From positions 1 to 26,145 of IMG/VR virus record IMGVR_UViG_3300020553_000031: a DNA stretch of 26,145 nucleotides. One strand, 5' to 3'. The position numbers were made by a program, and so were the translations under genes. Numbering within the stretch: the stretch's first letter is position 1; each line of letters opens with the position of its first letter. The notes beneath the pieces are model-generated. The model was given only the letters and a program-made list of their open reading frames with translations, was not told where the DNA came from and ran no database searches. Source of the DNA: a virus. Positions 57 through 22,740 of this stretch are shown piece by piece.

Positions 57-65
57 ATTGCCGAT

Positions 66-216
66 GTGCGTCGGGTTGTGCGTCTCGTTGTGCGGCCACA
101 CCTGACCCTTCTCAGCCATTTGGCTGAGGACAACGCTTCGTCCAGCGTCGAGGCTTGACACGTCTGGCAGAATGATTGAAGCCGGGGCACCCCGCCTCGG
201 CCATCCCTCAAGGAGA
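66..216 (+). promoter_or_regulatory. Leader cassette 1 (12-bp repeats, inverted repeat, CTTGACAC box)
   Basis: First of three related leader cassettes (others at about 3071 and 4612). Direct repeats GTGCGTCGGGTT (66-77) and GTGCGTCTCGTT (78-89) plus a partial third unit (90-95) are followed by a perfect inverted repeat, CTCAGCCA-TT-TGGCTGAG (111-128). Next comes a block shared with cassette 2 (139-161) ending in CTTGACAC, with TTGACA at 155-160, and a weak -10-like CAGAAT 7 nt later. A Shine-Dalgarno AGGAGA sits at 211-216. TTGACA lies 70 nt before the start codon. Because only 7 nt separate TTGACA from the -10-like box, TTGACA may be an operator rather than a -35 element. Confidence 0.65.
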
Positions 217-224
217 CACACCCC

Positions 225-1343
225 ATGAGCGCAGAAACGCTCGAATGGCTCAACGCCAACGTCATGTACGGCTTCGCCCATCACCGCACCAACTGGGGTG
301 CAGGCACGTCGTTCAGCAACGGTCAGCGGCCGTGGTTCGCTGACAGCAACTACAAGTTCCTTTACCCGGACGCCATCCCGGTCGAGGACGTCATCAACAA
401 CCTGTTCCACTGGGAACCCGTCGAGCAGATCCCCCATTTCGCCATCCCGTGCGACATGGCGACCGCTGACGGTATCGACACCAGCGGCCATCCGTTCCGT
501 TGGGTCACCGACACCCGCCGCAAGGCGATCATGCGGCCCGACACCAACGAGGTGTTCGGCTATTTCGGCGCATCGTCGTACAAGGTCCACTCGTACGGCG
601 AGTGGCTGATCGACAACGTCGCCACCATGCTCGATGCCGGCGAGATCGGCATCTCATCGGCCGGTCTGCTCCGTGGTGGCGGACAGGCATGGGTGTCGAT
701 CGAACTGCCCGACGACATCGAGGTCGAGGGCGCAGGACACATCCGGCCGTGCATCATCGCCGCGACGTCACTCGACGGGTCGCTCGCCACGACCTATGCG
801 ACCCGCATCATGCGGCCCGAGTGCGACAACTCGTTGCGACTGTCGCTGGCAGCATCCGGCGGCACACTGCGCGTCAAGCACTCGTCACGGTCCCTGACAC
901 GCATCAACGATGCCCGACAGGCGCTCGGCATCGTGTATCAGATCGGCGAGCAGGCCACCGAGTGGTTCGACATGCTGGCATCGGTCGACATCACCGACCA
1001 GCAGTTCAACGAGATCGTCCGCACGTTGGCACCGGTCCCGAACCCTGACGTGGTCGATGGCAAGGTCAAGAACCAGCGTGCCATCACGATCGCCACCAAC
1101 AAGCAGGTCGAGTTGCATGACTTGTGGGCTCACGACCACCGTGCAGCACCGTGGAACGGCACCCTGGCCGGCGCATACCACGCTGTCAGTACCTGGCAGC
1201 AGCACATGCTCCCCCAGGACGACGTGCAGATCCGCCGTCTCATGGTCGGCACTGTCACCGGCACGTACGACAAGGCCGAGCAGGAGTTCTGGCAGATCGT
1301 CGACTCGCTGGACATCAAGCTGCCGGAACTGGTGGTGGCGTGA
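225..1343 (+). CDS. DUF932 family phage/plasmid-like protein
   Basis: A 372-residue protein that I recognise as DUF932 (the phage/plasmid-like protein family TIGR03299). The diagnostic core is the central stretch around residues 150-210: an AWVSIELPDD-type strand, then a TSLDGS...ATRIMRPECDNSLRL segment, which corresponds to the family's usual 'hDGS...t.iRvvC.NtL' pattern. The N-terminal part with PW..D......D.I carries the family's typical lead-in. The biochemical role of DUF932 proteins is not established. They are common in phages and plasmids and are often expressed early. The ATG at 225 has AGGAGA 8 nt upstream, which decides the start. It heads a unit with the next gene, overlapping it by one base, and is driven from leader cassette 1. 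Confidence 0.85.
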   Translation: MSAETLEWLNANVMYGFAHHRTNWGAGTSFSNGQRPWFADSNYKFLYPDAIPVEDVINNLFHWEPVEQIPHFAIPCDMATADGIDTSGHPFRWVTDTRRKAIMRPDTNEVFGYFGASSYKVHSYGEWLIDNVATMLDAGEIGISSAGLLRGGGQAWVSIELPDDIEVEGAGHIRPCIIAATSLDGSLATTYATRIMRPECDNSLRLSLAASGGTLRVKHSSRSLTRINDARQALGIVYQIGEQATEWFDMLASVDITDQQFNEIVRTLAPVPNPDVVDGKVKNQRAITIATNKQVELHDLWAHDHRAAPWNGTLAGAYHAVSTWQQHMLPQDDVQIRRLMVGTVTGTYDKAEQEFWQIVDSLDIKLPELVVA

Positions 1344-1621
1344 TGAAGCGCCTTGCCATCACCGTGTCCGCCCGTTTCGTTGTGGACATCGACTACGACG
1401 TCGACCCGCACGACATGCCGTACAACATGGTCCACCACCTCATCGACTCGACGTTGGGGCTTGTCAAGGACGACCGGCTCCATGACGAGACGATGTTCAT
1501 GCCCGACCCGAATGCGGACATCGTCGGTTCACAGCGCACCATCCGTGACGTCTACGGCACGTCGATCGACTGGGAGATCGACGAGGACGACCCGTGGCGA
1601 CATGTGAGGGTCGTCCGATGA
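1343..1621 (+). CDS. Small acidic protein of unknown function
   Basis: A 92-residue hypothetical protein. The start ATG at 1343 shares its A with the TGA stop of the DUF932 gene, which indicates translational coupling. Predicted layout is a beta strand (ITVSARFVVDIDYD), a helix, and a closing strand (TSIDWEIDEDD). The same strand-helix-strand arrangement occurs at the C-terminus of the coiled-coil protein encoded at 3257. It is Asp-rich: about 19 acidic against 10 Lys/Arg. No catalytic motif is visible. An in-frame ATG as far upstream as 1124 would place the protein inside the DUF932 gene and is not credible. Confidence 0.7.
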   Translation: MKRLAITVSARFVVDIDYDVDPHDMPYNMVHHLIDSTLGLVKDDRLHDETMFMPDPNADIVGSQRTIRDVYGTSIDWEIDEDDPWRHVRVVR

Positions 1622-1902
1622 TGTCGGCACCCACACCACCACCCAGCGGCCAGTTGAATTGCCTCCCCACCATCTCGTTCGGTGAGGGATGCGACTGGGC
1701 CTCACTGGAGTACTTCATGGCCCGCACCGACCTGTGCTACCGGGTGTGGTACCGCCGTGACGGCCACATCGTCCATGCCGACATCGACAACCTGTCGTTC
1801 GACGAGGGCTGGATGACGGCATTCCACGAGGGCTACGACGTCGACAGCCCTCGCAAGCTCGTCATCGGCCTCGACGACATCGTCCACATCCAGTACCAGT
1901 AG
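1618..1902 (+). CDS. Hypothetical protein, 94 residues
   Basis: Unrecognised small protein. The start is taken as ATG 1618, overlapping the previous stop (ATGATG). ATG 1621 is the alternative, and GAGGG at about 1604 is a weak ribosome site. The N-terminus is proline-rich (residues 4-10), followed by a compact, aromatic-rich region with three cysteines. The middle part (YRVWYRRDGHIVHADI) looks like two beta strands. Codon use matches the flanks. It is the third gene of the DUF932 unit and is followed by a structured intergenic element rather than another coupled gene. No function can be assigned. Confidence 0.65.
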   Translation: MMSAPTPPPSGQLNCLPTISFGEGCDWASLEYFMARTDLCYRVWYRRDGHIVHADIDNLSFDEGWMTAFHEGYDVDSPRKLVIGLDDIVHIQYQ

Positions 1903-1914
1903 CCGCCTCTGACG

Positions 1915-1980
1915 GTTGCCAGCGGCACAGCGGGCCTCCATGGTCCGCTGTGCCAATGGGAGCAGTCAGTCCCGCTCCGC
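1915..1980 (+). promoter_or_regulatory. Structured intergenic element A (covarying hairpin)
   Basis: GTTGCCAGC leads into a perfect 10-bp stem, GGCACAGCGG (1924-1933) with CCGCTGTGCC (1945-1954), then a conserved tail AATGGGAGCAGTCAGTCCC and GCTCC, which can fold as GGAGC/GCTCC. The same element recurs at 3934-4000 with a different upper stem that still pairs perfectly. It lies in the 124-nt gap before the ParA-like gene. The shared ACACACACCCC sequence follows. There is no T-run, so it is more likely a 5' leader structure or processing site than a terminator. Confidence 0.7.
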
Positions 1981-2026
1981 AACACACACCCCTGGTGCAT
2001 CAGCACCCCACACCCCTGGAGACATC

Positions 2027-2632
2027 ATGTCTTTCCGTCCACCCATCAACCTGTTCTCCGTCAAGGGCGGCATCGGCGCAACAACGCTCGCAGCTGTCCT
2101 GCATCGGGAACTCGCACACCCGTCGCACCGTCTCGACCGTGTCCGTACCGTCACCCCGGACATGCGCGACATGGCTGCGATCTTCGCTCAGTCGGTCGGT
2201 GGTTACACCAATAACGACCGGACGCTCAACTACGCGTTCGACGGTGTGCTCACCACCATCACCGCACAACACACTCCCCCGGCGCACGACGAGTGCGACA
2301 TCGCCGAGGGCTACGGCCGTCCACTGCCCGGCTTCTACAACGTGCTGCTCGTCAAGCCGTGCTATCTGGCGCTCAGCAAGATCGTCCGGGAGCGCGACAG
2401 CTGGGAAGCCCCACTCGACGCACACATCGTCATCGAAGAGGACGGCCGTCCACTCAGAGCAGCCGATGTCACCCATGTGCTCGGCACGCGCTGCATCGCC
2501 AACATGATGTGGAATCCGGCGATCGGTCGCATCATCGACGCCGGCCTGCTCATGTCGCCGCAGTACACCCACTACGACCTCAATGTCGCGCGGTTCATCA
2601 TCGAGGAGGCCGAGTGCCATGTCACTCGCTGA
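2027..2632 (+). CDS. ParA/MinD-like protein with degenerate P-loop
   Basis: A 201-residue protein with the N-terminal strand and loop of ParA/MinD-type SIMIBI ATPases: INLFSVKGGIGATTLA, with the loop at residues 13-20. The signature lysine (K13) is present, but the P-loop lysine expected at position 18 (KGGxGKTT) is alanine. A later segment (NVLLVKPCYLALSKIV...HIVIEEDGRPLRAADVTHVLG) resembles the strand and helix pattern of actinobacterial ParA-like proteins. Loss of the P-loop lysine suggests weak or no ATP hydrolysis, so it may bind nucleotide, DNA or a partner without cycling. Start ATG 2027 has GGAGA 4 nt upstream. A longer frame to 1916 would run through the structured element and is rejected. 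The last 14 nt overlap the next gene. Confidence 0.7.
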   Translation: MSFRPPINLFSVKGGIGATTLAAVLHRELAHPSHRLDRVRTVTPDMRDMAAIFAQSVGGYTNNDRTLNYAFDGVLTTITAQHTPPAHDECDIAEGYGRPLPGFYNVLLVKPCYLALSKIVRERDSWEAPLDAHIVIEEDGRPLRAADVTHVLGTRCIANMMWNPAIGRIIDAGLLMSPQYTHYDLNVARFIIEEAECHVTR

Positions 2633-2870
2633 CCAGCTGCTCACGCTGTTCGATGCGTTCTGCGACAACGCGTCGTCGTTCACCTGCCAGGAGGCTGAGG
2701 TCATCTACGACATGTACGTCGAAGCCGACCTGCGCACCGAGGCACACAAGTTCATGTCGCATCACGCTGACGGCGACAACGACGACAGCGACGACCACGC
2801 ACCGCTGTACGACCACAACGGTTATCTGTCCGGTTGGAAGTACGTCGACCACGACAGCGAGGTCGCATGA
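2619..2870 (+). CDS. Small highly acidic protein
   Basis: An 83-residue hypothetical protein with about 19 Asp/Glu against 3 Lys/Arg. The N-terminal half appears helical. A middle segment is extremely Asp-rich (HHADGDNDDSDDHAP, about residues 47-61), and the end is aromatic (YLSGWKYVDHD). ATG 2619 is preceded by GAGGAGG with a 9-nt gap, a strong site inside the ParA-like gene, so its translation is independent or coupled. The charge pattern would fit a DNA-mimic or metal-binding protein, but no family is recognised and this is only a hypothesis. Confidence 0.75.
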   Translation: MSLADQLLTLFDAFCDNASSFTCQEAEVIYDMYVEADLRTEAHKFMSHHADGDNDDSDDHAPLYDHNGYLSGWKYVDHDSEVA

Positions 2871-3055
2871 AACTGCCAGCTGACCTGATCGACCATCTGC
2901 GCGACTGGCACACCCGATGGGCTGATGTCCAGATCGCCATGGATGAAGCCGAGATCAACTCGTCGCTCTACCCGGATGCCGACGACATGAGCATCGACCA
3001 CTCGTACGAGGGTCGTGAACTGCTGCTGCTCGTCATCGAACACATCGGCCTGTAG
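2867..3055 (+). CDS. Small acidic helical protein
   Basis: A 62-residue hypothetical protein. Start ATG 2867 forms an ATGA overlap with the previous stop, with GAGG 4 nt upstream. It has 14 acidic against 4 basic residues, an N-terminal amphipathic helix (LIDHLRDWHTRWADVQIAMDEA) and a hydrophobic C-terminal helix (ELLLLVIEHIGL). It is too short for a confident domain call. It closes the ParA-like unit: the repeat-bearing leader cassette 2 starts only 16 nt after its stop. Confidence 0.65.
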   Translation: MKLPADLIDHLRDWHTRWADVQIAMDEAEINSSLYPDADDMSIDHSYEGRELLLLVIEHIGL

Positions 3056-3070
3056 CAGCCACACATCGAC

Positions 3071-3245
3071 GCACAACCGGACCACACATCGCTGTGCGTC
3101 CGGTTGTGCGTCCGGTTGTGCGTCCGGTTGTACGGACACGCAGTCGCCACACAGCCACCACCCACCGTCCAGCGTCGAGGCTTGACACGGTGGGGATACT
3201 GACCCTGTCCGACCGGCACCCCGCCGGCGGCACTGCCTTAGGAGG
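3071..3245 (+). promoter_or_regulatory. Leader cassette 2 with alternative hairpins
   Basis: Contains three tandem 12-bp units GTGCGTCCGGTT (3094-3105, 3106-3117, 3118-3129) plus a degenerate end. Upstream lies an inverted unit, GCACAACCGGAC (3071-3082), that pairs perfectly with 3098-3109 or 3110-3121 and nearly perfectly with the third. Further down is the block shared with cassette 1, ending in CTTGACAC (TTGACA 3182-3187) with GATACT 7 nt later. A strong Shine-Dalgarno AGGAGG is at 3240-3245. TTGACA is 75 nt before the ATG. GATACT resembles a -10 element, and a standard -35 is not seen at the correct distance. Confidence 0.7.
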
Positions 3246-3256
3246 GCACACACCCC

Positions 3257-3931
3257 ATGGAACAGACATTGGACCAGCAGCAGTTGCACTGGGAGGCCGA
3301 ACGGTCCCGCTACAACAGCGAGATCGCCGGGCTCACCGAGCGCAACAACAACCAGATGCTGCTCATCGAGAAGCTTGACGCTGACATCACCGAGATCAAG
3401 GCCGATCGGGACCGCTTGCTCAGCTCGCACTTCGACGCTGTCAGCGAGACGGACAGCAAGATGGCCCAGCTGCACAGCGTCATCGCCGAGTTGACGCAGT
3501 GCAACGAGACGCAGCAGCAGCGCATCAACAGCGACATCTTGGCTCTCAACGAGATGACCAATCAGCGCGATGCCTTGCAGGCACGGCTCGACACCGTGCA
3601 GGAGACGGTCAAGTCGCTCTACAGCGACGCACAGATCATCTCCGACGAGTTGCTCAGCGAGGCCGAGAGCCGCGACTGGTGCAGCGAGTACGACCGGTTC
3701 GTCGACCGCGTCAACGGGCGGTTGAGCCGCATCGAGTTGCAGCAGCGCATCCGTCGCTACGAGGTCAGCATGACCGCCACGGTGACGTTCAGGGTCGAGG
3801 TCGAGGCCACTGACGAGGACGGTGCGCTGCAGTACGCCAACGACATGTCGATCGACCTGCCGTCCAGCTACGGCTCGATGTACGACATCGACATCTCGGA
3901 CCTCACCGCCGATGAGGCCAACCTGGCCTGA
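3257..3931 (+). CDS. Coiled-coil protein of unknown function
   Basis: A 224-residue protein. Residues 1 to about 135 are a continuous charged helix rich in Gln, Glu, Leu and Arg in heptad-like spacing, almost certainly a coiled coil and therefore likely a dimer or higher oligomer. A second helical part spans about 136-166. The C-terminus (about 168-215) is a strand-helix-strand module: YEVSMTATVTFRVEVEATDED, a helix, then YDIDISD. It resembles the fold predicted for the 92-residue protein at 1343. ATG 3257 has AGGAGG 11 nt upstream. It is expressed from leader cassette 2 as a single gene and is followed by structured element B. No family recognised. Confidence 0.75.
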   Translation: MEQTLDQQQLHWEAERSRYNSEIAGLTERNNNQMLLIEKLDADITEIKADRDRLLSSHFDAVSETDSKMAQLHSVIAELTQCNETQQQRINSDILALNEMTNQRDALQARLDTVQETVKSLYSDAQIISDELLSEAESRDWCSEYDRFVDRVNGRLSRIELQQRIRRYEVSMTATVTFRVEVEATDEDGALQYANDMSIDLPSSYGSMYDIDISDLTADEANLA

Positions 3932-3933
3932 CA

Positions 3934-4000
3934 GTTGCCAGCGGCACAGCACCACGCCCGGTAGTGGTGCTGTGCCAATGGGAGCAGTCAGTCCCGCTCC
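3934..4000 (+). promoter_or_regulatory. Structured intergenic element B (covarying hairpin)
   Basis: Second copy of the element at 1915. GTTGCCAGC precedes a perfect 13-bp stem, GGCACAGCACCAC (3943-3955) with GTGGTGCTGTGCC (3964-3976), then the same AATGGGAGCAGTCAGTCCC and GCTCC tail and ACACACACCCC. The outer 8 bp match copy A. The inner stem differs on both sides and still pairs, which is evidence for selection on structure. It sits between the stop of the coiled-coil gene and the Shine-Dalgarno of the gene at 4037. Confidence 0.7.
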
Positions 4001-4036
4001 ACAACACACACCCCACTGCCTCAGGAGGGCACAGCA

Positions 4037-4315
4037 ATGGTCACAGATGATGACATCATTCGGCATGTGCGTCAGTCCGACGCACTACAACCCAACGCCA
4101 TCTTCGTCGTGTCACCACTCGACGAGAATGCAACGTGCGGCACCATGTTCATGGTCCGTAACGTCCCCGACGACGCTGCCGACGATCTGCTCAGCAGCCT
4201 GTACAGCATCCACGTTCTCAGCCTGGCAGCAGGTGAGGACGTTCCGACGGCCGCATGGTACGGCCGTTGCCTCCCCACTGGGGACATCGTCATCGTCCAC
4301 AGGGTCTCGTCATGA
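4037..4315 (+). CDS. Hypothetical protein, 92 residues
   Basis: Unrecognised small protein with AGGAGGG 7 nt before ATG 4037. It is mildly acidic (13 Asp/Glu, 5 Arg). Predicted strands alternate with a short helix (AIFVVSP, MFMVRNV, DLLSSLYSIHVLSL, GDIVIVHRV), suggesting one small alpha/beta domain. Its leader carries structured element B, so it may share regulation with the ParA-like gene, which carries element A. The stop overlaps the next start (ATGA). Confidence 0.7.
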   Translation: MVTDDDIIRHVRQSDALQPNAIFVVSPLDENATCGTMFMVRNVPDDAADDLLSSLYSIHVLSLAAGEDVPTAAWYGRCLPTGDIVIVHRVSS

Positions 4316-4536
4316 GCACCCTCAGCACCTTCGATGACCCCATCCACCTCCGCACCAATGAGCCGTGCGAGTGGTGCAATGCACCCTGGGTGCCCATCCC
4401 GCATGTCGCTGACCGAGCGATGGAGATGGAGCACAGCGAGGACTGCGCGTACTACCAGTGGTACTGCGACATCCTCGACGACCCGGAGGACATCGACATG
4501 ACCGGAGTCCTGGGCGACGACATCGTCCCGCTCTAG
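4312..4536 (+). CDS. Small acidic Cys/His protein, possible zinc binder
   Basis: A 74-residue hypothetical protein starting at ATG 4312 in an ATGA overlap. It carries C19-x2-C22, H31, H41, C45 and C52, a spacing that could bind one zinc ion, though it matches no finger I can name. About 17 acidic residues face 2 arginines, and the C-terminal third is Asp-rich (DILDDPEDID). Acidic and possibly zinc-stabilised, it could be an inhibitor or adaptor of a host DNA-acting protein, which is inference only. A terminator follows. Confidence 0.65.
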   Translation: MSTLSTFDDPIHLRTNEPCEWCNAPWVPIPHVADRAMEMEHSEDCAYYQWYCDILDDPEDIDMTGVLGDDIVPL

Positions 4537-4558
4537 TCCTGTGCCCTCCAGATGATCT

Positions 4559-4604
4559 GGCCGTCCACTAGCAGCCGCTAGTGGACGGCCATTTCGTCGT
4601 TTCT
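4559..4604 (+). terminator. Intrinsic terminator after the 4037-4536 unit
   Basis: Perfect 13-bp stem GGCCGTCCACTAG (4559-4571) with CTAGTGGACGGCC (4578-4590), 6-nt loop, followed by a T-rich ATTTCGTCGTTTCT. It lies 22 nt after the stop at 4536 and directly before leader cassette 3, so it insulates that promoter from upstream transcription. Confidence 0.85.
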
Positions 4605-4757
4605 GCGTCCGGTTGTGCGTCCGGTTGTGCGGAACGACATGGGAGGCACCTTGGACACCACACACCGTCCACTGTGCAGCACTACAGCAGGCTTGACACG
4701 GTGGGGATACTGATGATGAGCCGATCGGCACCGGGCCGACGGCATTCATAGAGAGGA
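4605..4757 (+). promoter_or_regulatory. Leader cassette 3
   Basis: Direct units TGCGTCCGGTTG repeated twice (about 4605-4630) are followed by GGCTTGACACGGTGGGGATA at 4690 (TTGACA 4693-4698, then GATACT 7 nt later). The core is identical to cassette 2 over this stretch. GAGAGGA (4751-4757) is the ribosome site. TTGACA lies 72 nt before the ATG, close to the 70 and 75 nt in the other cassettes. The leader between them has a CGGCACC...GCCGACGGCA segment resembling those of cassettes 1 and 2. Confidence 0.7.
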
Positions 4758-4764
4758 CAGTGAG

Positions 4765-5121
4765 ATGGCTCGCAAAGCCACTACCACTACTGACAGCAAC
4801 AACGGACCGATCCGGCTTGATCCGGACCGATTCGGTATCCGGAAGTACGGCAAGTACGACAACCCTACGTGGGCCATCGTCGGACCGTCGGCAGACATCG
4901 CCGCCATGTTCCGGAACACCGGACAGCACTACGTGATCACCACGAGCCGTGGTCGTGACATGGTGATCATCCCGACCGGCACTGTGGTGAGCCGGAAGGT
5001 GGACGGACAGCCGGTCCGTATCTGGCTCGACGAGAATGGGGAGAAGCGTTCCGCCATGGTCTACAACCGCGTCAACAACGGCAAGACTGTGCAGCGCTAC
5101 GATGAGTCGGCATTCGACTGA
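4765..5121 (+). CDS. Hypothetical protein, 118 residues
   Basis: Unrecognised protein with a Thr/Ser-rich N-terminus (residues 4-13), then a globular, probably beta-rich part (WAIVGPSADIAAMFRNTG, HYVITTSRGRDMVIIPTGTVVSRK, PVRIWLD). It is roughly neutral to basic, unlike the acidic small proteins before it. It is a single-gene unit, between leader cassette 3 and a very strong terminator. Being isolated with its own promoter and terminator suggests a high or separately timed demand for the product. Function unknown. Confidence 0.75.
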   Translation: MARKATTTTDSNNGPIRLDPDRFGIRKYGKYDNPTWAIVGPSADIAAMFRNTGQHYVITTSRGRDMVIIPTGTVVSRKVDGQPVRIWLDENGEKRSAMVYNRVNNGKTVQRYDESAFD

Positions 5122-5274: not shown

Positions 5275-5304
5275 TTGCTCCGACTAGACTGGAGTGTGTA
5301 CGCT
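5275..5304 (+). promoter_or_regulatory. Candidate promoter of the packaging/head unit
   Basis: TTGCTC (5275-5280), an 18-nt spacer, and TACGCT (5299-5304), with the ATG at 5313, 8 nt beyond the -10 box. There is no Shine-Dalgarno ahead of that ATG, so the transcript would start at or just before it. The geometry resembles the boxes at 8922, 10839 and 22741. Confidence 0.45.
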
Positions 5305-5312
5305 GTCTGGAC

Positions 5313-5756
5313 ATGCAGATGGTGAGTGTTGTAGCGATCGTGGTGGTGGCAGGGATGGCGATGACGGTCATCTGGCTCCAGTCACGGCTGATGTCGGTCA
5401 TGTCGAAGCCGCAGGTGGACGTATCTCAGGTTGTGCGGGACGTTCTCGACCGGTTCGTCGAACAGTCGAAGGTGTCGGGGGAGGTTCTGACCGGTGTGTA
5501 TGCGCCGCCCGAGCCCCCGCCGGCAGCACCGAGCCCGTTCGTGGCGTACGACGAGAGCCCGCGCATGGTGTCGTTGGCTGATTTCGATGATTCGGACCCG
5601 ACCGACGAGTATCTGCGGCCTGTTCGTTCTGCTGCGGTGGTGGTCGATCCGGCCGATGACAGCCCGTTCGGTGTGCCCGGCCTGACCTACGTCACCCGCA
5701 AGGACGAGCCGTTGACGATTGCCGACATCATCGGGACCGGCTATGCCCCGAGGTGA
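5313..5756 (+). CDS. Membrane-anchored protein of unknown function
   Basis: A 147-residue protein with one N-terminal hydrophobic segment (VSVVAIVVVAGMAMTVIWL, about residues 4-22), then a short basic stretch, a helix (VSQVVRDVLDRFVEQSKV) and a proline-rich spacer (PPEPPPAAPSPF). The long polar tail ends in LTIADIIGTGYAPR. It should be anchored in the host membrane with the tail in the cytoplasm or outside, and orientation is not clear. ATG 5313 was chosen because it lies just after a -10-like box. ATG 5319 and GTG 5271 are alternatives and none has a good ribosome site. It heads the packaging unit and overlaps the next gene by 14 nt. Confidence 0.65.
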   Translation: MQMVSVVAIVVVAGMAMTVIWLQSRLMSVMSKPQVDVSQVVRDVLDRFVEQSKVSGEVLTGVYAPPEPPPAAPSPFVAYDESPRMVSLADFDDSDPTDEYLRPVRSAAVVVDPADDSPFGVPGLTYVTRKDEPLTIADIIGTGYAPR

Positions 5757-6385: not shown

Positions 6386-6668
6386 CACGCTGACCCAGTT
6401 GGCGCAGACGGCGCTGGCTGCGGATTCGACGCTGAAGGAACGGACACAGAAGATGTTCGGCCAGGCGTTGCAGCGGGCCCAGTACATCTTGGACTTCGGC
6501 ACCGATCAGGAACGGTCGGCGCTCATCAAGGCGATCGTGCCACAGATGATGCGGTCGTTGCAGGACGAACAGGCCGACGTCGAGGCGAAGGCGCAACGGG
6601 CTGCGTATGAGCGGATGCGTGAAGCGATGCGTGGCGGTCCGCCAGGGAAACGGGCGCGCAAGAAGTGA
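6363..6668 (+). CDS. Candidate terminase small subunit
   Basis: A 101-residue, all-helical protein starting at GTG 6363, with GAGGTGA just upstream. It has a polar N-terminus, central helices (LQRAQYILDFGTDQERSALIKAIVPQMMRSL) and a strongly basic C-terminal tail (GGPPGKRARKK). It ends four bases into the large terminase, a GTGA overlap. Position and size fit a small terminase subunit that recognises packaging DNA, but no helix-turn-helix signature is clear, so the assignment rests mostly on context. Confidence 0.5.
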   Translation: MATPKQTDTLTQLAQTALAADSTLKERTQKMFGQALQRAQYILDFGTDQERSALIKAIVPQMMRSLQDEQADVEAKAQRAAYERMREAMRGGPPGKRARKK

Positions 6669-8476
6669 CGCTGTTGACGATCACCCCATCGGCGTGGGAC
6701 GACATGGACTGGGAAGCTGACGGACGGATCCATCTCGTCCCGCTGGTGTCCGAGTTGTTCATCCTCACCAAAGAGCGCGGCATCGTCCGGCTCGGCGACG
6801 TGATGAATCATGCCCAGCGCGACTTCCTGACACGCTGCGAGCAGCAGTTGAACGACACCGGCCGGATCCGCGCCTGCGTCCTCAAGGCCCGCCAGATCGG
6901 CCTGTCGACGATCATCGAGGCGATCATCTTCGTGCTGTCGATGCTGTACGACAACCTGAACAGCCTGGTCATCTCCCATGAGAAGGATTCCGCCGAGGCG
7001 CTGCTCGGCATGACGAGGCGCTACTGGGAGTCGTACCTGTGGAAGTCGATGCATGACGAGAAGTACTCGGGGCGCACCCAGTTGTCGTGGTCCGACACCG
7101 GCTCGAACATCCAGATCGCCACCGCCAAGAACGTCAACGCCGGCCGGTCCCGCACCATCCACTGTATGCACGCTTCCGAGGTCGCCTTCTACGACGACCC
7201 GGAGACACTGATGACCGGGCTCCGCCAGTCGATCCCGACGAACGGGCTGTCAGCAGTGTTCTACGAGTCGACGGCCAATGGTGTCGGCAACTTCTTCCAC
7301 CGGCAATGCGTCTCGTCGATGAAGCACCAGTCCGAGTACGAGTTCTTCTTCTACCCGTGGCATGAGCACCCCGAGTACACGGCGAAGTCGATGCCGTCAT
7401 CGGAACAGAAGAAGTACACCTTGCTGGCCGACCCTGACGACGAAGAACTGGCGTTGCGCAAGATGGGCCTGGGCGACGACCGGCTGATCTGGCGGCGCTA
7501 CGCGATCGAGAACCTGTGCCAAGGCGACGTCGACAAGTTCCATCAGGAGTACCCGACCACCCCGCACGAAGCGTTCGTGTCGACGGGCCGCAACGTGTTC
7601 CCGCTGAAGGATCTGCTGTCGCACTACCACCCCAAGCGTGGGGTCCGCGGCGTGCTGCGCCGGCGAGGCAACAACGTCGAGTTCGTCGAACAGCGAAACG
7701 GCTGGCTGACCGTCTACTCACGCCCGTCACGCGACATCTCCTGGGGCGTCTACCTCGTCGGCGCAGACGCCACCCACACCGTCACCGGCGACTTCGCTGT
7801 CGGCCAGATCATCAATCGGCGCACCAAGGAACAGGTCGCCGTCTACACCCGCAAGGTCGACCCGGTGCAGTTCGGCAAAGACCTCCAGCTGCTCGGCCAC
7901 TGGTACCACATGGCGATGATCGCCCCAGAACGTGAAGGCCCGGGCTACGCCACGGTCGGCTGCATCGCCTCCGACAACTACCCGAACCTCTACCAAGGCA
8001 CCAACGTGGTGTCGGCCCGCGGCCACGTCACCGATGCCCTCGGCTGGTCGACGAACTCGGTGACCAAACACCTGGCCGTCCAGCATCTCCGCCGGCTCGT
8101 CACCGAACCGATCATCGAAATGGGTGGCGCACAGTACGGCCTCGTCGTCCACCATGAGGTCACCCTGGCCGAGATGCGCGACTTCGTCACCGACGAACGC
8201 GGCACCGGCTACGAGAACTCGGGCGCATCAGCCCACGACGACCACGTCATGGCCCTCGCCATCGCCATTGCCGTCGACGCCCTCGAACCGCCGCCACCGC
8301 CGTACGAGGCCACCGACATGGACAGCGACTTCCAGCGCCCCATCGCGCGGGTGTCGCTCGAAGAGGGCCGCTACATGGCCCACCATCCAGAAACAGCCGC
8401 ACTGGAGCCCGCCGGCGAAGGCGGACCAGTGGTCCCATGGGAGGCATGGGGCGAAGCCCAGGAGATGTTCACATGA
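6665..8476 (+). CDS. terL: Terminase large subunit
   Basis: A 603-residue packaging ATPase/nuclease. The ATPase part has a Walker A-like CVLKARQIGLST (residues 71-82; the usual GK[ST] is here GLST, a form common in this terminase group), an acidic Walker B-like HASEVAFYDD (169-178) and an ESTANGVGNFF coupling motif (201-211). The RNase H-like nuclease part has VGADATHTVTGDFAVG (365-380, D368 and D376) and HDDHVMALAIA near 524-534, supplying the later metal-binding aspartates. Length is normal. It starts at GTG 6665 in a GTGA overlap with the candidate small subunit. The protein would dock on the portal encoded at 8935. Proline-rich residues 541-547 begin a non-conserved tail. Confidence 0.95.
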   Translation: MTLLTITPSAWDDMDWEADGRIHLVPLVSELFILTKERGIVRLGDVMNHAQRDFLTRCEQQLNDTGRIRACVLKARQIGLSTIIEAIIFVLSMLYDNLNSLVISHEKDSAEALLGMTRRYWESYLWKSMHDEKYSGRTQLSWSDTGSNIQIATAKNVNAGRSRTIHCMHASEVAFYDDPETLMTGLRQSIPTNGLSAVFYESTANGVGNFFHRQCVSSMKHQSEYEFFFYPWHEHPEYTAKSMPSSEQKKYTLLADPDDEELALRKMGLGDDRLIWRRYAIENLCQGDVDKFHQEYPTTPHEAFVSTGRNVFPLKDLLSHYHPKRGVRGVLRRRGNNVEFVEQRNGWLTVYSRPSRDISWGVYLVGADATHTVTGDFAVGQIINRRTKEQVAVYTRKVDPVQFGKDLQLLGHWYHMAMIAPEREGPGYATVGCIASDNYPNLYQGTNVVSARGHVTDALGWSTNSVTKHLAVQHLRRLVTEPIIEMGGAQYGLVVHHEVTLAEMRDFVTDERGTGYENSGASAHDDHVMALAIAIAVDALEPPPPPYEATDMDSDFQRPIARVSLEEGRYMAHHPETAALEPAGEGGPVVPWEAWGEAQEMFT

Positions 8477-10731: not shown

Positions 10732-10748
10732 CCCCAACAGCGCGCCCC

Positions 10749-10801
10749 GGATCCCCGGAACCTCACCCCGCCGGAGGCGGGTGGGTGTTCCCCTGGGTTG
10801 C
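10749..10801 (+). repeat. GGATCCCCGGAAC hairpin element, copy 2
   Basis: Second copy: GGATCC at 10749, hairpin from GGAAC (10757) to GTTCC (ending 10791) with CCCGCC-GGA-GGCGGG at the tip, then CCCTGGGTTGCC. It is preceded by CAGCGCGCCCC, also seen at copy 3. It fills the gap between portal stop and the promoter at 10836, and probably ends or processes the portal transcript. Confidence 0.8.
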
Positions 10802-22632: not shown

Positions 22633-22659
22633 CCTCAGCGCGCCCCAGCGGCGCGCCCC

Positions 22660-22708
22660 GGATCCCCGGAACCCCACCCCCCGAAGGGGGTGGGTGTTCC
22701 CCTGGGTG
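22660..22708 (+). repeat. GGATCCCCGGAAC hairpin element, copy 3
   Basis: Third copy: GGATCC at 22660, hairpin from GGAAC (22668) to GTTCC (ending 22700) with a near-perfect stem whose inner part is CCCCC facing GGGGG instead of CCCGCC facing GGCGGG, so both sides changed together. CCCTGGG follows. It lies between the adaptor stop and the promoter at 22741. Confidence 0.8.
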
Positions 22709-22740
22709 TCTGACAGCATACCGCTTTCTACACTGGTGTG

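Follow-up and report, generated by a model that had tools for sequence, protein, structure and literature searches.

How could RNA polymerase start transcription where TTGACA, the sequence of a -35 element, lies just 7 nucleotides (nt) above a -10-like hexamer? The question is raised by three units in the left arm of a contig from an uncultured phage, the IMG/VR record IMGVR_UViG_3300020553_000031, which was analyzed in full (26,145 bp, the complete record, classed linear; hereafter the window). Each unit is preceded by a cassette with the same order of parts: 12-bp direct repeats, CTTGACAC, a -10-like hexamer, a leader hairpin, a ribosome-binding site and the start codon (n = 3). These cassettes are a real, conserved and unusual promoter-like module, larger than a first-pass annotation of this DNA had described. 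Apart from a handful of model systems, hardly anything is known of how RNA polymerase is captured by phages that infect uncultured high-GC bacteria. The short recurring promoter proposed here, with its constant yet seemingly impossible spacing, can be tested directly and, if true, would be a new way of redirecting the polymerase. The core elements are as follows.

154 to 161, plus strand: CTTGACAC box of unit 1 (TTGACA at 155 to 160)
168 to 173, plus strand: putative -10 of unit 1, CAGAAT, 7 nt after TTGACA
3181 to 3188, plus strand: CTTGACAC box of unit 2 (TTGACA at 3182 to 3187)
3195 to 3200, plus strand: putative -10 of unit 2, GATACT, 7 nt after TTGACA
4692 to 4699, plus strand: CTTGACAC box of unit 3 (TTGACA at 4693 to 4698)
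4706 to 4711, plus strand: putative -10 of unit 3, GATACT, 7 nt after TTGACA

On recheck, the boxes, the hexamers 7 nt on and the distances from TTGACA to ATG (70, 75 and 72 nt in units 1, 2 and 3) proved to be exactly as first annotated. The box alone is not significant: CTTGACAC has three copies in the window, and at least three occurred in 11 of 100 shuffles. The composite element, unlike the box, is rarer than chance allows. A 24-nt matrix, built partly from the three window sites themselves, found no sites in the window but these three and none in one shuffled copy, and units 2 and 3 agree in every letter of a 25-nt stretch (AGGCTTGACACGGTGGGGATACTGA).

A terminase search yielded two relatives, L004 (25,354 bp, 84% identical) and L005 (8,320 bp, 83%). 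Their cassettes were reached via protein homology and not via the motif, which makes them an independent test of the spacing. All three cassettes stand at corresponding places in L004 (TTGACA at 144, 2881 and 4632), and L005 carries the third, with the box TTGACG at 1733. The hexamers below these boxes are TTCAAT, GATGAT and GATAAT in L004 and GATGAT in L005, and the 7-nt spacer (N7) is kept in four of four; TTCAAT, in the first L004 cassette, is a poor -10. The first-pass annotation had let its reading depend on conservation in related phages. L004 and L005 keep the boxes, the repeats and the spacings, so the reading passes this test. A single regulatory scheme probably serves all three units.

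The doubt already voiced about TTGACA as a normal -35 was justified. No -10 was found at N16 to N19 below TTGACA in the cassettes, and no -35 at 16 to 19 nt above the N7 hexamers, where the mean best match was 2.2 of 6 versus 2.6 at random. The cassettes thus do not have the canonical sigma-A layout, with a TTGACA-like -35 at 16 to 19 nt from the -10. That layout is approached elsewhere in the window.

5275 to 5304, plus strand: canonical-type promoter TTGCTC-N18-TACGCT before the rightward structural genes

Its counterparts are TTGACA-N18-TACGGT in L004 and TTGACA-N18-TACGAT in L005, each 6 nt before an ATG.

Two high-GC phages of unrelated lineages, L024/G003 (17 kb) and G303 (49 kb), also contain several copies each of the core TTGACA-N7-GAYAMT. 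L024 (IMGVR_UViG_3300008116_005375) has two TTGACA-N7 promoter-like sites and G303 (IMGVR_UViG_3300037422_000199) about five. Across the five contigs (126 kb), KAYAMT stands at N7 below TTGACA in eight instances, and the remaining spacings between 0 and 30 together account for two; two of the eight N7 cases were pattern-seeded (L024 8086 and G303 1218), and the count itself did not assume N7. In G303, the ATG of a 211-amino-acid frame follows TAGGAT, and that of a 146-amino-acid frame GAGAAT, by exactly 6 nt (sites at 46635 and 47301). Because these two copies are leaderless, the hexamer, present at N7 as annotated and there called no more than -10-like, appears to be a true -10. The box is then more likely a part of the promoter than a separate operator. 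That the geometry is found again both in relatives and in a pair of unrelated phages suggests a little-known mode of transcription initiation, and the open-access literature yielded nothing on a phage promoter with a 7-bp spacer.

Control loci of high GC content (215 kb, 100 TTGACA) gave none at N7 once the pattern matches themselves were excluded, and low-GC control loci peaked at N17, as expected. Eight cultured actinophages had one match at N5 and none at N7. Among 296 Actinomycetota genomes there were 16 matches at N5 to N9 (three at N7) against 8 in the reversed control, which is control level. The strict hexamer pattern used in the controls misses weaker -10s. As the controls show no N7 peak, the arrangement is not shared by all actinophages and is not a general type of host promoter, and a host-wide promoter class was rejected for the Actinomycetota sample. 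Box-based scans of IMG/VR returned for the most part either coding chance or canonical TTGACA-N17-TATAAT promoters from AT-rich phages. The lone sites in L061/L078, L086, L094, L103 and L063 were not counted, as their contigs contain no second copy whatever the spacing between 1 and 24. The L063 site, in the first 3 kb of the record of Thermus phage P23-45, a cultured phage that can be grown, is one CTTGACAAGCCCTGGATAATG before a ribosome-binding site and may be chance. Outside the cassettes, an exact GGTTGTGCGGGA lies in a conserved coding region (VSQVVRDV) at 5429 in the window, 5358 in L004 and 2426 in L005, and may reflect coding constraint or an extra site.

Upstream of the boxes, the 12-bp repeats first annotated are present in all three units, at 66 to 89 (degenerate, with 1 to 2 mismatches), 3094 to 3129 (three perfect copies) and 4603 to 4626, but GGTTGTGCG-TCN, set on a 12-bp lattice, is the more fitting description of the unit.

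62 to 94, plus strand: array of unit 1, CGATGTGCG, GGTTGTGCG and CGTTGTGCG on the 12-bp lattice, with ends at -84, -72 and -60 from TTGACA
3068 to 3112, plus strand: inverted repeat copy upstream of unit 2, which can pair with the array through perfect 15-nt arms
3090 to 3134, plus strand: array of unit 2, four GGTTGTGCG-type units, with ends at -83, -71, -59 and -47 from TTGACA
4551 to 4598, plus strand: terminator-like inverted repeat between units 2 and 3
4599 to 4631, plus strand: array of unit 3, three GGTTGTGCG-type units, with ends at -85, -73 and -61 from TTGACA

The GGTTGTGCG units of the three L004 cassettes end at -74 and -62, at -84, -72, -60 and -48, and at -60 from TTGACA, and those of L005 at -82 and -60 from its box. 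A single 12-bp lattice fits all arrays, with the -60 slot occupied within ±2 bp in seven of seven cassettes. Between cassettes, the 59 to 62 bp from this slot to the box have diverged to near-random identity (14 to 49%, median about 21 to 26%, the last 18 nt excluded). Compared with random phases, the concentration of register has a P of about 0.0007 if the seven cassettes are independent, and of 0.09 with three independent cassettes only (range test, 0.007). The constraint on spacer length looks real, though the cassettes share ancestry. Elsewhere in IMG/VR, the 12-mer tandem was found in the L004 contig only, and GTDB genomes gave seven matches, none showing the cassette as far as inspected. 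Matches in the Ja1 metagenome-assembled genome (L014 and L016; Ja1_bin-2358) were unrelated to phage, the 12-mer there encoding AQPD repeats in an esterase-like gene; the copy number of these repeats differs between the near-identical contigs L014 and L016.

Below the hexamers, the leaders can fold.

181 to 201, plus strand: leader hairpin of unit 1, GCCGGGGC-ACCCC-GCCTCGGC, just after the inferred transcription start (z-score, -2.8)
3207 to 3233, plus strand: leader hairpin of unit 2, loop ACCCC (z-score, -0.3, not stronger than shuffles)
4720 to 4743, plus strand: leader hairpin of unit 3, loop ACCGG, with a bulged A (z-score, -3.1)

Folded from the inferred start, seven of seven leaders of the window, L004 and L005 form a hairpin, usually with one bulged base (loops ACCCC, ACCCC, ACCGG, ACCCC, ACCGG, ACCTAC and ACCGG). 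Their z-scores range from -1.7 to -3.8, except for unit 2 of the window. Because the stems differ while the loop is kept, a selected RNA hairpin is suggested. The two L024 leaders also fold well (z-scores, -7.6 and -2.6), and G303 leader folds were not above shuffles. Both L024 cassettes have an 8-nt direct repeat at -91 and -65, different in sequence in each, and share GCGCGTRCG at about -62; such sites arose in 0 of 20,000 shuffles, but they were noticed after the fact.

We lean, by little more than even chances, toward a factor-dependent phage promoter in which a TTGACA box, closer by one helical turn, stands in for the -35 and is complemented by an upstream activator array. Each cassette would supply one transcription unit with its entire promoter and leader. 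RNA polymerase would open the DNA at the hexamer and start about 7 nt downstream of it. This would put TTGACA near -25 to -20. Sigma region 4 could not read it as a -35 so close by while sigma region 2 holds the -10, and therefore another protein or a remodeled sigma would read it as a positive element. A phage protein, a second one or the same, would bind the upstream array (9-bp GGTTGTGCG sites at a 12-bp pitch) and activate from a fixed distance. The three separate units would then be switched on together, apart from the structural operon with its normal N18 promoter. The elements, their spacings and conservation, the lack of a normal -35 and the leaderless layout in G303 can be read directly from the sequence; use of the hexamer by the polymerase, a positive role of TTGACA, binding of an activator to the array and co-regulation are inferences drawn from it.

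Several points weigh against this promoter model. A known repressor operator has, as its conserved part, the very sequence of the box. Common descent links the seven cassettes of the window, L004 and L005, which therefore do not count as seven separate events. L024 and G303 first came to notice through pattern and matrix scans that had N7 built in. Finally, no candidate reader was found: the contigs of the window lineage are incomplete, and in these partial sequences we detected no sigma region 4, WhiB or phage RNA polymerase, the last searched for without a positive control. The L024 phage does encode a WhiB protein. An all-against-all BLAST found no regulator shared across the lineages, with few weak or structural matches only. 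The cassette signature is itself searchable and could locate co-regulated units and the missing regulator.

More tentatively, and with the odds somewhat against it, TTGACA-N7-GATAMT may define a class of phage promoter that has not been described so far and that serves high-GC phages of several unrelated lineages. Its factor would recognize the -35 sequence closer to the -10, by one helical turn, than sigma can normally manage, and activator arrays at a fixed distance would be lineage specific.

Known systems resemble parts of this factor-dependent scheme. At the phi29 late promoter A3, the activator p4 binds well upstream of a promoter without a -35, as the arrays might be bound here, but p4 reads inverted repeats, whereas the cassettes have tandem direct repeats and an added TTGACA box. 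Sigma-54 promoters have -24 and -12 elements and upstream enhancer sites. The cassettes likewise have two elements about 12 to 13 bp apart and upstream activator sites, but their hexamers (GATACT, GATAAT, CAGAAT and others) are -10-like and lack the -12 TTGC with its invariant GC; actinobacteria are generally not known to have sigma-54. In T4 middle promoters (MotA box, AsiA, sigma appropriation), the promoter retains the host -10, and a box read by a phage protein, nearer by and at a fixed distance, takes the place of the -35. There the MotA box lies 12 ± 1 bp from the -10 (PMC2988021) and has another sequence; the cassettes differ in their 7-bp spacing, TTGACA and upstream arrays. Neither MotA nor AsiA was noticed in the contigs, although no search aimed at them was made.

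A serious rival, though we think it rather unlikely, keeps the hexamer as the -10 of an activator-dependent promoter and makes the CTTGACA box a repressor operator in its spacer, with a monomeric repressor of the cluster A (L5/Bxb1) type blocking all three units. The first-pass annotation had drawn this parallel with cluster A mycobacteriophages. Part of it held. All boxes read CTTGACA toward the downstream gene, as in D29, and over their first 10 bases they match most D29 stoperators. Of 12 CTTGACA sites in the right-hand 9 kb of D29, 11 read CTTGACA(G/T)(C/A)(C/T)ACC along transcription. In the published operator consensus sequences, GGTGGMTGTCAAG and GTTACGWDTCAAG, CTTGA is constant and the remainder varies (PMC3029335; see also PMC5559632). 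This fits the cassettes, in which the window CTTGACACG(T/G) resembles the Bxb1 form and the L004 CTTGACAGCC, which is also the start of most D29 stoperators, the L5 form. Control of several units through one asymmetric site would be a further likeness to L5 gp71 and Bxb1 gp69. Other parts of the parallel failed. The 13-bp site is not conserved over its length, as its last three bases vary and only CTTGACA plus 1 to 3 bases are common to the cassettes. The cluster A system has 20 to 34 sites dispersed through the genome, many not at promoters, whereas here there are three per 25 to 26 kb, all at promoters, in contigs from which the rest of the genome is missing. No homologue of the gp71-like Trixie repressor was found in the partial contigs. 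A steric block needs no fixed N7; none of the 12 D29 sites has a -10 at N7, and the site taken for Pleft has its -10, TAGAGT, at a normal N17. Nor does the cluster A system, as described, include tandem 12-bp arrays upstream in fixed register. An operator role for the box is thus only an analogy, and the cassettes most likely belong, as a variant, with factor-dependent phage promoters and not with the stoperators.

It is improbable that box, hairpin and repeats act instead in RNA, as processing or translation signals in a longer transcript from further upstream. The leader hairpins with their constant ACC loop would suit such a role, and the start-associated sequences (SAS) of cluster K phages offer a precedent: GGGATAGGAGCCC lies close to the start codon and is thought to act in translation (PMC3203893). 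Like the SAS/ESAS of that actinophage group, the cassettes are short conserved elements repeated before several unrelated genes; unlike them, their leaders, read directly, have no GGGATAGGAGCCC next to the start codon. Terminator-like hairpins lie ahead of the arrays in the window and L004, the G303 copies are leaderless, and TTGACA with a -10-like hexamer is the vocabulary of DNA promoters. No RNA reading demands exactly 7 nt.

Quite improbable, too, is that the arrays are replication iterons or a centromere, close to promoters through autoregulation by a partition or replication protein. Centromere-type arrays of repeats are known from omega/delta of pSM19035, tandem short repeats occur here at three places, and a weakly ParA/MinD-like protein is encoded in the same arm (L004 1763 to 2323). 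Its match to the AAA_31 and ParA models (E, 0.002) is below the Pfam cut-off, and the window counterpart (2027 to 2632) has no Pfam match. Moreover, the arrays keep register with the promoter box, which a centromere does not need, and these arrays are missing from the other two phages, which do have the promoter core. The protein, encoded between units 1 and 2 (window 2027 to 2632; L004 1763 to 2326), starts with a deviant Walker A motif, SVKGGIGATT or SVKGGVGLTT. Ordinary host promoters with an accidental TTGACA above the -10 are barely credible, for although -10-like hexamers are common and database-wide pattern scans yield such sites by chance, the N7 peak appears in three unrelated lineages, is conserved in homologues and is absent from the controls.

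The genes behind the promoter-like cassettes give a hint of the host.

225 to 1343, plus strand: lead gene of unit 1, phrog_1221 family, with database relatives almost all in actinophages
3257 to 3931, plus strand: lead gene of unit 2, 224 amino acids, no assigned function
4765 to 5121, plus strand: gene of unit 3, 118 amino acids, no assigned function, 53% identical to its L004 counterpart

Because the phrog_1221 relatives are almost all in actinophages, the hosts of the window lineage are probably actinobacteria. The window DNA had no match among annotated phages, and the predicted structure of the unit 3 protein was unusable (predicted local distance difference test score, 45).

The left end of the window falls inside a hairpin repeat with further copies at about 10,750 and 22,660. 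This suggests an assembly break, and the window is probably a fragment of a phage genome because it starts within this recurring repeat. The hairpin, CCGGAAC..GTTCCCCTGGGT, recurs in all three related contigs, at 1 to 55, 10740 to 10800 and 22658 to 22712 in the window, 6640 to 6690 and 10789 to 10832 in L004, and 3716 to 3757 and 7857 to 7900 in L005.

Rfam gave nothing over threshold in the window. An intergenic element with two copies (1909 to 1992 and 3928 to 4014) nevertheless looks like a structured RNA without an Rfam match. Near-identical flanks (46 nt, 98% identical) surround a large hairpin in which both strands of the stem differ near the loop (GCGGGCC/GGTCCGC versus GCACCAC/GTGGTGC), and its ends (GTTG..CAAC) could close a three-way junction. 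L004 1643 to 1718 is tRNA-like, with a T-arm GGGGTTCGATTCCCC, a 7-bp acceptor and CTA in the loop; it scored 33 bits against the tRNA-Sec model, below the cut-off, was not called by ARAGORN, and is a candidate for a decayed or unusual tRNA.

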